From Hyphomicrobiales bacterium (GTDB taxonomy: Bacteria; Pseudomonadota; Alphaproteobacteria; Rhizobiales; Beijerinckiaceae), in assembly GCA_025351165.1 (NCBI GenBank), contig JANXWK010000008.1:1-64000 (forward strand): DNA of 64,000 bases, read 5' to 3'. Under the pieces are notes generated by a model. That model worked only from the letters and a program-made list of their open reading frames with translations. It was not told the DNA's origin and made no database searches. Positions 52,368 to 59,286 of this stretch are shown in pieces. Both the position numbers and the translations under genes were made by a program. Numbering within the stretch: the stretch's first letter is position 1; every line of letters begins with the position of its first letter.

Positions 52368-52426
52368 CCCTCACCCGACCCTTGTTAACGCAAAGGCCAC
52401 CCTCTCCCATAAATGGGAAAGGGAAA
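52368..52426 (-). repeat. 59-bp palindromic repeat, right copy (inverted)
   Basis: Reverse complement copy of 51695-51753 with about 85% identity. It overlaps the first bases of the longest cobT open frame, which is one reason to start cobT downstream at 52443. Confidence 0.8.
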
Positions 52427-52442
52427 AGTCAGAGCTAAACCC

Positions 52443-54341
52443 ATGACCCTATCCAATCGCAAAACTGGACAATCTGCTCCCTCTCCCAATGAGCCGTTGA
52501 AACGCTCCGTTGCTGGATGCTTGCGTGCGCTGGCGCGAACGCCTGATATTGAGGTGGCATATGCCGCTGAAAAGCCCATGTTGATGGGCTATGGGGCGGG
52601 TGCAAAGGCGCGGCTGCCAGAACCGCCCCGCAAAATTACCACCAAAGATGTTGATATCTTACGTGGTTTTGCCGATTCATTCGGGTTGCGCCTTGCCTGC
52701 CACAACGTGCAGCTGCATCGTAAGCTCTCCCCTGAAATGCAGTCTTCGCGCGCCATATTTGATGCTGTGGAGCAAGCGCGTGTTGAGGCAATTGGATCGC
52801 GCCGCATGTATGGTGTGGCGAACAACCTCACTGCCATGCTGGAGGATCGCTATCATCGCGGTAAATATGAGGACATTACCGACCGTGCGGATGCCCCGCT
52901 TGAGGACGCACTGGCTCTCATGGTGCGCGAGCGGCTTACAGGTCAAAAACCGCCCGAAGCTGCCCTTAAAATCGTTGATCTGTGGCGTGAATTTATTGAG
53001 AAGCGTGCTGGCAAGGAACTGGATAAGCTGGGTGCAACGATTGAAGACCAGCGGCTTTTTGCCAAGTCTATCCATCGCCTGCTTGAAACACTTGATATGG
53101 GTGATCCGAGCACGCTGGATAAAGATGAGAGCGAAGACGATAATAATAAAAATGAAAGTCAGCCTGAGGATAATAGTCAGGATACAACGGGCCAAAGCAG
53201 CGAAGACCAAGCTTTTGAAGGCATGGAATTGCAGGAAACTGATTCAGCACAGGATGATCTGAATGAAGGTGCAGAAGAAGCACCTGATTCGCCCAGCGGT
53301 GAGTTTCCAGACGAAACAGATGCGATGGACTCAACTGAGCCTGCGCAAGGCAAGCGTCCACCAAACCAAATGGGGCATAATCGGACACAATCTGATTATA
53401 AAGCTTACAGTCATAAATTTGATGAAACCATACATGCGGAAGATTTATGCGAAGGTGAGGAGCTTGACCGTCTTCGTGCTTTTTTAGACAAGCAGCTTGG
53501 TGCATTGCAGGGCGTTGTGGGGCGGCTCGCAAACCGATTGCAGCGGCGGTTACTGGCACAGCAAAACCGTGCTTGGGAGTTCGATTTGGAGGAAGGCCAG
53601 CTTGATCCTGTGCGCCTGCCGCGCATCATTATTGACCCTTATCAGGCGCTCTCATTCAGGCAGGAAAAAGACACGAATTTTCGAGATACGGTGGTCACGC
53701 TGCTCATTGACAATTCTGGGTCCATGCGTGGGCGGCCTATCACTGTGGCTGCCACCTGCGCCGATATACTCGCTAGAACCTTAGAGCGTTGCGGCGTAAA
53801 AGTCGAGATTTTAGGCTTCACGACCAAAGCGTGGAAGGGCGGAGCTGCGCGTGAATCATGGCTTCAGGGCGGTAAACCCGCCAATCCTGGGCGTTTGAAT
53901 GATTTACGCCATATTATTTACAAATCGGCGGATGCACCATGGCGCAGGGCGCGGCGCAATCTGGGCTTGATGATGCGCGAAGGGCTGCTGAAGGAAAACA
54001 TTGACGGCGAGGCGCTGGACTGGGCGCATAAACGCCTGCTGGGGCGGCCTGAGCAACGCAGAATTCTGATGATGATTTCTGATGGTGCGCCTGTGGATGA
54101 TTCAACGCTCTCGGTCAATAATGGCAATTATCTGGAGCGGCATTTGCGAAGCGTGATTGAGGAGATTGAGACGCGCTCGCCTGTGGAACTGATTGCTATT
54201 GGCATTGGCCATGATGTAACGCGCTATTATCGCCGTGCCGTGACAATTGTGGATGCAGAAGAGCTTGGCGGCGTAATGACTGAGAAATTAGCCGAGCTGT
54301 TTGAAGAAGGCGTGAAAGTTGTGCGGCGGGGGTGGAGGTAG
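52443..54341 (+). CDS. cobT: Aerobic cobaltochelatase subunit CobT
   Basis: CobT works with the CobS AAA+ ring and CobN in cobalt insertion. The 632-residue protein has the N-terminal region ([22 protein letters not shown]), an acidic, glutamine-rich central linker (about residues 215-310, with [19 protein letters not shown]), and a C-terminal von Willebrand A domain with [13 protein letters not shown] as the metal-ion-dependent adhesion motif. The open frame extends to 52413, but those codons come from the palindromic repeat; I start at the ATG at 52443, which has a weak ribosome site. The acidic linker is a normal CobT feature. Confidence 0.93.
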
Positions 54342-54345
54342 TGAC

Positions 54346-54401
54346 TTCTTTCTACTGTTTACGGTAGAGGGTGACTTAACGAAGTTAGGTTGGATAAGGG
54401 G
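54346..54401 (+). repeat. Degenerate copy of the 59-bp repeat, left
   Basis: TTTACGGTAGAGGGTG and the following bases to GGGG align with the left repeat copy at 51695 in the same orientation, with many changes. It starts five bases after the cobT stop. Confidence 0.55.
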
Positions 54402-54443
54402 TGTAAAGCTTCATAAATCTACAAATTGAGGCCATATTACATT

Positions 54444-54480
54444 TCCTTACCCGATCTTTGTTAACGTAAAGATTACACTT
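54444..54480 (-). repeat. Degenerate copy of the 59-bp repeat, right (inverted)
   Basis: CCTTACCCGATCTTTGTTAA and the following bases align with the right repeat copy at 52368. With the degenerate copy at 54346 it forms a second inverted pair, here with only about 40 bases between and no gene. Confidence 0.55.
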
Positions 54481-54509
54481 GAACATGAATACGAGAATAT
54501 AACCGAGTC

Positions 54510-56057
54510 TTAAATTATAATTTTCTCTTTGAGTATAAATTCTTTTAAAGTCGCATGGACTTCTAGTTTTTCATTTTGAATATAAGCAGCACTTTTGTCC
54601 TCAATTAAAGGGATCGGTGCACCTTCATACCATTCCTTGGCCTTACCAAAATTATCTTTACGCTTCTTTTTTTCAAAAATATCTCTGTAACGCCTTGGTG
54701 AAATACCCATAAAAGGCTCAAATAAAACCTTGTTTGTATCATTTCCATTTCTTTCGAATGTAATTGAATCTGAATGTAGTTTATGAGCATGGCTCTTTGG
54801 GTAAGGTTCTAAGAAAACAACTCTTTGTATTCCAGCCGCAACAATGTGCTTTGCACATAGATGGCATGGAAATGTTGTACAAAATAAAGTTGCTCGCAGA
54901 GTTGATCTACCTAATTGAGCAGCATCTGAAATGGCAGACATCTCTGCATGTATAATCCTTCCATACTCAATAATATCCATAATTTGGGCATCTTTAAATT
55001 TAGAGTTTTTCTCTAATACTGCGACCCGACTTTTTTCATCTTGTAAACCAGTAAGTTCGACAGATAAAAATCCAGCTCCAGCTAAACGTTCAATTAAATC
55101 ATATATAATCTCGTTTTTTCGGTCTTGATTCGGATCGCTACCCCTTTCAACATCACGAAAAATAGTGGAATCGTCATCTTCCCAGTATGTACCACCTTTA
55201 GCTTTAGGCACTTCATTGCATCCTAAAGTAACAATTTCACCACAATCACTGAAGATAGCTGCACCAACTTGCCTAGAAAGATCAACCGAACGTAGCGCAG
55301 CTGCGTTTGCCATATAAAGCCCGTATTCATCTTTGCTCGGAGATATTTTTGTATCTCCAAACAATGCACGTACAAAACGCTGTATAGTTTTTGTAGTACG
55401 GTCTTTGTTAATACCATCTACAAAAACATCACCAAGATGAAATACATCTGATAATCTTTGGCCATTAGCATCGTCTTTTTGACTTTGATCCATGTCTATT
55501 AATTTGATAGCTTCTTGTTCACAAATTGCTTCATTTTTTGGGGAAGAGTCATATGTACTTATTTTATCCATTAACACTTGCCTACGCTCTAATGATCTTC
55601 CAAAAACAGAGACTTGTATAAACTTTCGTCCATACACACGGCGCATAACTTCTATTTCTTCAGGGCGTTTAAATTGGCGTATAATATACGCATTTTTTAA
55701 AGCAGGATCAGCTGTATTATTAGTTTGATTATTTTTTATTCTGATTTCAGATATTTTTGTAATTGCAACACCAGACATAGCAGCTGGTGTTTTAGCCAAT
55801 TTTCGAAATTCATTTCCATATTGAATTAGAGTGTCGTATCTTGTGTAGTAAGAACTTTCATCTATCAAAATATCAATTTTGTAGTTTTTAGCAAATTTTG
55901 TTAAATGTATAACATGAGATTTATAGCTCACTTCTTTTAAAGATTTTTCCAAAGCCTCAACAACATTATCAATATTTACACCAATTGGGCCGACAATTCC
56001 AAATACAAGTTCAGGCGTAGTAATTTTATTAAGAGCTAAATCCGCCTTAATGTTCAT
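54510..56057 (-). CDS. Antiphage dCTP/dCMP deaminase (AvcD/DcdV-type)
   Basis: The 515-residue protein has two parts. The N-terminal P-loop-like domain (LVFGIVGPIGVNIDNVVEALE at residues 18-38, with a modified loop, then a nucleoside-kinase-like region to about 270) is followed by a C-terminal zinc-dependent deaminase (GLYMANAAALRSVDLSRQVGA, HAEMSAISDA with the catalytic glutamate, and TTFPCHLCAKHIVAAGI with both zinc cysteines). This is the architecture of AvcD/DcdV, which deaminates deoxycytidine nucleotides during phage infection and starves phage replication. In Vibrio an upstream RNA, AvcI, holds it inactive. The catalytic residues are all present. It lies in an accessory island between cobT and secA. 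Confidence 0.87.
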   Translation of the reverse strand: MNIKADLALNKITTPELVFGIVGPIGVNIDNVVEALEKSLKEVSYKSHVIHLTKFAKNYKIDILIDESSYYTRYDTLIQYGNEFRKLAKTPAAMSGVAITKISEIRIKNNQTNNTADPALKNAYIIRQFKRPEEIEVMRRVYGRKFIQVSVFGRSLERRQVLMDKISTYDSSPKNEAICEQEAIKLIDMDQSQKDDANGQRLSDVFHLGDVFVDGINKDRTTKTIQRFVRALFGDTKISPSKDEYGLYMANAAALRSVDLSRQVGAAIFSDCGEIVTLGCNEVPKAKGGTYWEDDDSTIFRDVERGSDPNQDRKNEIIYDLIERLAGAGFLSVELTGLQDEKSRVAVLEKNSKFKDAQIMDIIEYGRIIHAEMSAISDAAQLGRSTLRATLFCTTFPCHLCAKHIVAAGIQRVVFLEPYPKSHAHKLHSDSITFERNGNDTNKVLFEPFMGISPRRYRDIFEKKKRKDNFGKAKEWYEGAPIPLIEDKSAAYIQNEKLEVHATLKEFILKEKIII

Positions 56058-56147
56058 AAATTTTTACCTTATAACTTGGTTGAGCGACTTGAGTAAGCTG
56101 ATTCTATAAGTATATTGCAAATTACAAATAATACACTGGAGATTAAA

Positions 56148-56357
56148 ATGTCTGATTGTAAGAGAGCTATAGCAGAGCAAAATGATGGATCTGAATGGTT
56201 GCTTTTACAAATTCGATCAGCATTTAAAACTATCCGAGAGAAATCATTACATCGTCGTGGTTCGTATTTAATACGTGACGAAGATCTTGAAATTCCAACT
56301 CAAAAGCCAATATCTTTGAAGCAAAGCTCTGATTGCGATCAAGACTTAGTAAAATAA
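56148..56357 (+). CDS. Small divergent gene next to the antiphage deaminase, unknown function
   Basis: The ATG at 56148 has GGAG six bases before it and gives 69 residues starting MSDCKRAIAEQNDGSEWLLL. The product is charged and likely soluble with a helical N-terminal half (QIRSAFKTIREKSLHRRGSYL) and a polar tail. I recognise no family. It is divergent from the deaminase gene with 90 bp between the starts, exactly where a regulator would be expected, and it belongs to the same island. It could be a regulator or an accessory, but this is only inference. Confidence 0.55.
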   Translation: MSDCKRAIAEQNDGSEWLLLQIRSAFKTIREKSLHRRGSYLIRDEDLEIPTQKPISLKQSSDCDQDLVK

Positions 56358-56457
56358 CTATTCCACTATAATATTCTAAAAATACTGTCTTAATGCAGTA
56401 ATTCTTGATTTATCAATAAAATTAAACAAGCCCAAAATTGAAGAGAAAATAAAAGAC

Positions 56458-56489
56458 GTGGATACGCGGGTCAGGCCCGCGCATGATGG
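56458..56489. repeat. GC-rich palindromic repeat at the right edge of the island
   Basis: The sequence contains GCGGG and CCCGC around TCAGG within a longer near-palindrome beginning GTGGATACGCGGG and ending CCGCGCATGATGG. It has the form of the REP-like palindromes scattered through many alphaproteobacterial genomes. It sits between the small gene and secA and ends 20 bases before the secA end. Confidence 0.6.
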
Positions 56490-56508
56490 TGGCAGGTGAA
56501 CTTACTGT

Positions 56509-59286
56509 CTAAACCGCAACTATCGCCCCGTGGCAGTGCTTGAATTTTTTACCAGATCCACAGGGGCAGGGTTCATTACGGCCAACTTTACCCCAAGTGC
56601 TGACATCATCTGCTTTGCGCTCCACTGCTGGCAGAGATAAACCATACCCATCAGACATCTCATTTTCACCCGTTAACGGATCAATATGGCTTGCCTGCAT
56701 ATCTGGCAGCTGCGCTTCTGGTGGAGCATCAAACATAACCTCCACCCGCATGAGCTGGGCTGTTACATCCTCACGCAGTTTGGTGATCAGCTCGTTGAAC
56801 AGTTCAAACGCCTCTGATTTATACTCGTTCAAAGGATCGCGCTGGGCATAGCCACGCCAGCCAATCACCTGCCGCAAATGGTCAAGGGTCACAAGGTGCT
56901 CACGCCATAAGTGGTCAAGGCTTTGCAAAATCACCTGTTTTTCAACATAAAGCATGACTTCGCTGGTGTTTTTTGTTCGCCGTACCACATAAGCCTCGTC
57001 TGCTGTATGACGCAGACGCTCGCGCATTTCCTCATCTGCAATGCCTTCTTCCTTTGCCCAGTCAGATACAGGAACATCAAGGTTAAGAAGCTTTTGCACA
57101 TCTTCATGCAGAACCGACACGTTCCACTGCTCAGGATATGCACCTTCTGGAATATGGGTTGTGACCAGATCGTCGATCACGCCGTGGCGCATGTCAGTGA
57201 TGGTTTCCGACATGTCCTCAAGCGACATGAAATCCTTGCGCTGATCGAACACGGCTTTACGCTGGTCATTCATCACATCATCGTATTTGAGGATGTTTTT
57301 GCGCATGTCGAAGTTACGCGCCTCCACTTTTTTCTGTGCGGTTTCCAAGGCCTTATTCACCCATGGATGGGCAATGGCCTCGCCTTCTTTCAGGCCAAGT
57401 TTCTGAAGCATACCATCCATACGGTCTGAACCAAAGATCCGCATCAGATCATCCTGCAAGGACAGGAAGAACTTCGAATGGCCTGGATCGCCCTGACGGC
57501 CAGAACGCCCGCGCAGCTGGTTATCAATACGGCGGCTTTCATGGCGCTCAGTACCAATCACCATTAGGCCACCAGCTCCAAGAGCCTTGACTTTAAGCTC
57601 CGCGCACTGGGCAAGAATAGCAGTTTCACGCTGTTTATAATCCGGGCTTTCAGGTTCAAACCCTGCGCATTCGCGCTTGATACGCATGTCGTAATTGCCG
57701 CCAAGCTGAATATCCGTGCCGCGCCCTGCCATGTTGGTTGCAATGGTTATTGCGCCTGGCACACCAGCTTGGGAGACGATAAACGCTTCCTGCTCATGAT
57801 AGCGGGCGTTCAAAATAGCAAATATTTTGGCAGGCATACCCTGTTTAATACCATCATATAGCGGGGCGAAGGCCTTTTCATCGCCAAGATCAATCTGCTT
57901 GAAGCCTAGTTTATGTAAATGTTCACCGAGTTCTTCTGATTTTTCAATTGAAGTTGTGCCAACCAGTACAGGCTGACCCTTGCTGCTGCACTCAGCGACT
58001 ATGCCTGCAATAGCGGCAACTTTTTCAGCCTCGGTGCGATAGACCTCATCATCATCATCAATACGCTTTACATTCATGTTGGTTGGAATTTCCACGACTT
58101 CAAGATTATAAATCTGGTGAAACTCATCGGCTTCTGTGCCAGCAGTCCCTGTCATACCAGCCAGACGATCATAAAGCCTGAAATAATTCTGGAAGGTTAT
58201 GGAGGCAAGCGTTTGGTTCTCTGGCTGAATTGTAACATGCTCTTTGGCTTCCAAGCCTTGATGCAGGCCTTCGGAATAGCGGCGGCCTGGCATCATACGG
58301 CCTGTAAATTCATCAATGATGACCACCTCATCATCTTTGACGATGTAATCCTTATCCCGTGTAAAGAGCGTGTGGGCACGCAAGGCCTGATTAACATGAT
58401 GCACGAGAGTTGCATTATGGGCATCGTAAAGCGTACCGTCTTTTAGCAGACCAGCATCTTGCAGAAGCTTTTCAATTTCCTCATTGCCAGCTTCGGTAAG
58501 GGATACAGAACGCTGCTTTTCATCCAGATCAAAATGCTCTTTAGCGAGTTTTGGAATAAGCACATCAATAGAGTTGTATAGTTCTGAACGATCATCAACT
58601 GGGCCAGAAATAATAAGCGGCGTTCTGGCCTCGTCGATTAAAATGGAATCGACCTCGTCCACAATGGCAAAATAATGCCCACGCTGCACCATCTGGCTGA
58701 ATTCATATTTCATGTTATCGCGCAGATAATCAAAGCCGTATTCGTTATTGGTGCCATAGGTTATATCACAGGCATAGGCTGCGTGGCGTTCAGTATCGTC
58801 CATGCCATGCACAATAATGCCAACAGACATGCCCAAAAACTTGTAGATTTTACCCATCCATTCTGCATCGCGCCGTGCGAGATAGTCATTGACGGTAACG
58901 ACGTGAACGCCTTTGCCAGCCAATGCATTGAGGTAAACTGGAAGTGTTGCAACAAGGGTTTTGCCTTCGCCTGTGCGCATTTCTGCAATGCCGCGTTCGT
59001 TCAGCACCATGCCGCCAATGAGCTGCACATCAAAATGACGCTGGCCTAAAGCACGTTTTGCAGCTTCCCGCACAGTGGCAAAGGCTGGAATCAGAAGATC
59101 ATCAACTGTTTTTGAACCATTGGCGATCTGCTGGCGAAATTCATCGGTTCTGGCACGAAGGGCATCATCGTCTAGCTTGACAAGATCGGCTTCGAGGGCA
59201 TTGATGCTTGCCACTTTGGGGCGGTAATTTTTAAGACGACGCTCGTTAGAAGAGCCAAAGATCTTTCGTGCAAGTCCGCCAAGCAT
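56509..59286 (-). CDS. secA: Protein translocase ATPase SecA
   Basis: SecA drives preproteins through SecYEG with ATP. The 925-residue protein, a normal length, has [25 protein letters not shown] with Walker A near residue 105, [33 protein letters not shown] and [10 protein letters not shown] of the second nucleotide domain, and a C-terminal zinc-binding tail [14 protein letters not shown] that contacts SecB and the membrane. The start at 59286 ([19 protein letters not shown]) is the expected N terminus. It is divergent from the parvulin gene. Confidence 0.97.

Follow-up and report, generated by a model that had tools for sequence, protein, structure and literature searches.

The best-described relatives of the system examined here are the AvcD (DcdV) deaminases, characterised members of which deaminate both dCTP and dCMP and are kept inactive by an upstream noncoding RNA, AvcI; when phage infection halts host transcription, AvcI is lost and AvcD is released (PMC10511110; PMC12409362). 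AvcI has a minimum length of approximately 171 nt (PMC10511110). Enzyme and RNA together make up the AvcID type III toxin-antitoxin systems of Vibrio parahaemolyticus, V. cholerae and Escherichia coli (ETEC). A second precedent is Sofic, a toxic defence protein regarded as a single-gene system and later found with an overlooked small protein antitoxin, AS1 (PMC12249575).

In the window (the whole 64,000-nucleotide stretch of DNA that was analysed, from a Hyphomicrobiales bacterium), an intact open reading frame on the minus strand at 54510-56057 encodes the 515-residue protein that the original prediction had assigned to the AvcD/DcdV type, and the profile searches agree with that assignment. 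The best matches were to antiphage deaminase profiles: PADLOC dCTPase (E = 4.1e-159, 529 bits) and the NCBIfam model NF041025 ("anti-phage dCTP deaminase"), which scored 455.2 bits, above its cut-off of 400. As with known DcdV/AvcD proteins, the match was full-length and covered two domains. The zinc deaminase motifs of the family were present (HAE at residues 370-372 and PCxxC as PCHLC at 397-401), and the predicted combination of a P-loop-kinase-like N-terminal domain with a C-terminal cytidine deaminase is borne out by the AlphaFold2 model (pLDDT 83.7), for which a fold search of the PDB related the N-terminal domain to adenylate-kinase-related proteins and the C-terminal domain to dCMP and dCMP/dCTP deaminases. 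The loop GPIGVNID at residue 23 stands in place of the Walker A motif and is without its lysine, so the departure from the usual GKS/T form that had been remarked upon is real; it is not, however, special to this protein, as none of 99 full-length relatives contained GxxxxGK[ST] in their first 120 residues (the most frequent form of the loop being GLVGPIGV), which makes the absence of the lysine a trait of the family. The profile phrog_9198, which represents the branch of this deaminase family carried by phages and has no function assigned in PHROGs, also matched the protein over its full length (332 bits). Judged by its sequence, the protein is a DcdV/AvcD family anti-phage dCTP deaminase, a further member of an already known family, and by analogy with characterised relatives it would be expected to act on dCTP and to defend against phages.

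The deaminase gene is inserted among housekeeping genes, as had been claimed, with cobT to its left (52413-54341, plus strand; Pfam CobT/CobT_C) and secA as the right neighbour of the locus (56509-59286, minus strand), at the junction of two housekeeping blocks. The G+C content of positions 54342-56440 is 34%, compared to 53% in cobT and 49% in secA. Two (G021 and G026) of 35 further genomes from the genus and family carried dcdV, and it was absent from the sole other genome of the genus (G001; 82% complete); in the class, 14 of 385 genomes exceeded the NF041025 cut-off. This AT-richness and sporadic occurrence fit horizontal gain of the locus, and the comparison with related genomes indicates that dcdV is no conserved housekeeping gene. 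That the protein could be an ordinary dCMP deaminase or ComEB housekeeping enzyme, with which it has the Pfam deaminase zinc-binding region in common, is hardly credible: the ComEB profile TIGR02571 gave 49.7 bits against a cut-off of 219.45 while NF041025 was above its own, the gene is patchily distributed and low in G+C, and this reading is refuted by the profile scores and the distribution.

The locus had also been described as a bordered island, a view that did not hold. The degenerate inverted repeats on the left are rejected as a border because they are at chance level (best arms of 14 nt, 79% complementary, equalled or bettered in 180 of 300 dinucleotide shuffles), and they occur as a single copy in the genome. 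The GC-rich palindrome on the right exists (approximately 56453-56498, plus strand, just before secA), but it belongs to a REP-like repeat of which the genome holds about 20 other convincing copies, and being scattered genome-wide it is neither an island border nor part of the system. The copies often occur as inverted pairs approximately 50 nt apart. No direct repeat or target-site duplication longer than 7 nt was found flanking the region. The proposed comparison of the cobT-secA interval with relatives gave a divided answer, in that dcdV is missing from most relatives, but cobT and secA are themselves not neighbours in the relatives examined, where the two blocks lie apart or are rearranged (in G011, cobT is about 8 kb from secA and the argJ-secA block is inverted); a clean empty site is therefore not demonstrable.

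The original prediction was built around the deaminase alone and overlooked a second gene at 56148-56357 on the plus strand, which encodes a 69-aa protein. This gene begins with ATG, preceded by a Shine-Dalgarno sequence (GGAG at 56138-56141), and is divergent from dcdV, the two start codons being separated by a 90-nt intergenic region (56058-56147) with 28% G+C that presumably contains divergent promoters; promoter matches in this gap were no commoner than in shuffled sequences. The 69-aa protein had no match in Pfam, NCBIfam, PHROGs or PADLOC, its homologues had no convincing library match, and nothing was found among the sequences of solved structures. Searching named genomes with an alignment of DcdV proteins yielded 80 loci; a scan of genome contigs with a single protein found no relative, whereas the alignment-based scan did. 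Comparison of the small open reading frames (ORFs) by all-against-all BLAST defined families, of which family A includes the 69-aa protein: among the 80 scanned loci, 21 other loci carry a family A homologue divergently upstream of dcdV, at a spacing of 49-122 nt in 20 of the 21 (the gene at L196, where the dcdV frame is broken, lies farther away). Family A proteins are 51-71 aa in size and consist of a helix followed by the consensus RPxxRRGPxVIxDxDL, and their start codons are preceded by Shine-Dalgarno sites. The closest pair differs at 6, 4 and 25 sites at codon positions 1, 2 and 3, respectively, and dN/dS, which spans approximately 0.07-0.3 in close pairs, is approximately 0.07-0.1 in the closest pairs with usable dS and approximately 0.1-0.4 in most others. 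These patterns of substitution indicate a real, translated gene under purifying selection. The gene is new to the libraries searched, and no mention of it was found in a search of the literature other than the primary DcdV paper.

Family A genes are linked near-exclusively, and divergently, to dcdV. When control genes of the same loci were searched within 200 nt for a divergently oriented ORF, 40-100 codons long, that had an ATG start and a good Shine-Dalgarno sequence, 6 of 201 had one, compared to 47 of 84 dcdV loci (p = 5e-24), a set that includes the loci from which family A was defined; the independent blind scan consequently weighs more. In that scan, the family A profile was run against 397 whole genomes of the order and gave seven hits at E <= 1e-8, the window included. 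Each of the seven directly adjoins a dcdV gene in divergent orientation, although only 27 genomes of this set contain dcdV, and the sole other match was marginal (E = 1e-3, within a 332-aa ORF). With a family B profile (see below), 393 genomes produced a single hit, which again lies next to dcdV in divergent orientation. No third conserved gene was found near dcdV. The exception came from a plasmid collection: Rhizobium leguminosarum plasmid pRlX5 carries an intact family A ORF (L246:2974-3165) with a Shine-Dalgarno sequence and with no dcdV within 3 kb. This copy may be an orphan antitoxin or may have an independent role. Related Rhizobium plasmids retain a truncated piece of a family A gene near an IS66 element (L247:2989-3087).

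Other alphaproteobacterial dcdV loci carry other small genes in the same divergent position. Family B (AxRxAxRMGxxFV) was found at 25 such loci and the looser family C ([G]WLxxD) at approximately 14, of which seven form the core and those beyond the core were collected partly by eye; smaller sets of divergent small ORFs exist besides these. Families A and B have good evidence of coding; for family C it is weaker. Families A and C share a weak similarity (P = 0.0014), and profile comparison gave no clear sign that A and B form one superfamily. When partner types A, B and C are placed on a tree built from 99 DcdV proteins, only two changes are required, and all three fall within a clade of 82 sequences (SH-aLRT 98) that contains the window DcdV, with the Vibrio, Klebsiella and E. 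coli proteins outside; partner type thus follows the deaminase tree. Some deep-branching alphaproteobacterial DcdVs have no recognisable partner. Three rhodobacterial loci (L156, L170 and L185) carry another conserved divergent small ORF, with a QLEAVFQPR ending, approximately 245 nt upstream of dcdV. At the dcdV locus of Zymomonas, families A-C are replaced by a divergent protein (annotated as 85 aa; L125:4207-4461, minus strand) with a Cys/His pattern like that of a SWIM zinc finger. Outside the Alphaproteobacteria, dcdV is the main cargo of ColRNAI-type K. pneumoniae plasmids of approximately 4.6 kb (L207 and others), on which the annotation places a hypothetical protein of 61 aa immediately before dcdV on the same strand.

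The locus resembles AvcID in having a homologous toxin with a candidate regulator encoded immediately upstream, but the position that the RNA antitoxin occupies at known DcdV/AvcD loci is here taken by a divergent small protein gene; the AvcID regulator is a noncoding RNA (PMC10511110), whereas the candidate here appears, from its substitution pattern, to be translated and under purifying selection. A rival possibility is that DcdV is nevertheless controlled by an RNA antitoxin of the kind known from Vibrio and E. coli, made from the dcdV strand and passing over the small gene, whose protein would then serve another purpose. This reading draws on the control of characterised family members by AvcI upstream of avcD (PMC10511110; PMC12409362) and on the room for an antisense overlap between such an RNA and the small gene. 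It is unlikely, however, because substitutions in the sequence upstream of dcdV show codon-level constraint on a protein, no excess of RNA structure was seen in the 203 nt that precede dcdV on its own strand (z = 0.11), and an Rfam search of the upstream region for an AvcI-like RNA gave no match. The gap left free between the start codons at family A loci (49-122 nt) is also below the AvcI minimum of approximately 171 nt, and no family A frame was seen at L206-L208, gammaproteobacterial loci that fall outside the clade with partners. Since a protein gene holds the place of AvcI, the free gap is shorter than the minimum of that RNA, and neither excess RNA structure nor an Rfam match was detected, we propose that the small protein regulates DcdV directly, as an antitoxin or otherwise, which is the simplest reading, although neutralisation itself is inferred.

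Under this proposal, the locus would be a two-gene antiphage module in which the small divergent protein is most likely an inhibitor of DcdV, a reading to which we assign a probability of approximately 50%. Upon phage infection, DcdV would convert dCTP and dCMP to dUTP and dUMP and thereby starve phage DNA synthesis, and in the uninfected cell the enzyme would have to be kept inactive. In the alphaproteobacterial clade of the window, the small protein (a helix and a flexible tail with the RRGPxxIxD motif) would bind and inhibit DcdV; given its small size and probably short lifetime, this protein would disappear once the phage blocked transcription or translation in the host, and DcdV would be freed. 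The logic of release would be the same as that of the AvcI RNA in the Vibrio and E. coli systems. The role of the small protein as an antitoxin and its lability are put forward with less certainty than the dCTP activity and phage defence of the deaminase. A helix with a disordered tail is typical of protein antitoxins, and the AlphaFold2 model of the 69-aa protein, which has one helix and a disordered tail at low confidence (pLDDT 68, pTM 0.34), fits an antitoxin without proving it.

The arrangement of the two genes also bears on what kind of partner the small protein may be. The locus shares with type II toxin-antitoxin systems an adjacent small protein gene, but type II pairs normally form one operon and divergent orientation is unusual among them; the single operon is missing here, and because the two genes are divergent the locus is not classed as a classical type II system. 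Divergent orientation favours transcriptional control over a classical type II pair, and conserved small genes in this orientation frequently encode transcription regulators, typically with a short shared intergenic region. The small protein could accordingly regulate transcription from the divergent dcdV promoter, controlling expression of the deaminase and not its activity. The divergent orientation across a short intergenic region would suit such a role, as would a GCGAT-ATCGC palindrome that lies over the -10-like box of dcdV in some family A loci; yet we consider it improbable, since no match to a helix-turn-helix or other DNA-binding domain was found for the small protein, which has 51-71 aa and a single predicted helix, and the palindrome is absent from the window. 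Where it occurs (L130, L133, L135 and L136, all family A), the palindrome has the form GCGAT-N6-ATCGC, covers a GATAAT box before dcdV, and is a possible operator.

It is also conceivable, though decidedly unlikely, that DcdV needs the small protein for its activation or targeting, as a co-effector or as a sensor of infection, and is not inhibited by it. The strict linkage and the matching of partners to DcdV clades would suit any direct partner, and the fast diversification of the partners is sensor-like; however, characterised relatives function without a protein partner, and there are deep-branching alphaproteobacterial DcdVs for which none is recognisable. Inhibition of DcdV by the small protein is kept here as the preferred reading. 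It finds a parallel in Sofic-AS1, where a toxic antiphage enzyme was likewise taken for a single gene and a small protein gene adjoins it (PMC12249575). The proteins of the two systems are unrelated, and AS1 differs in lying downstream and in that its neutralisation of Sofic has been shown experimentally.

The deaminase has so far been catalogued as a single-gene system whose known control is an RNA, and defence annotation overlooks the partner gene. Cloning the deaminase alone from partner-bearing bacteria may consequently prove toxic or miss its control. On a broader scale, we tentatively suggest, at somewhat less than even odds, that a large alphaproteobacterial branch of the DcdV/AvcD family is controlled by divergently encoded small proteins that diversify quickly (families A, B, C and others) and replace the RNA antitoxin. 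If these small proteins are antitoxins, one toxin family would be under RNA control in one lineage and under protein control in a second, which would allow a direct comparison of RNA and protein antitoxin control of a single enzyme, and of how each is triggered by phages.
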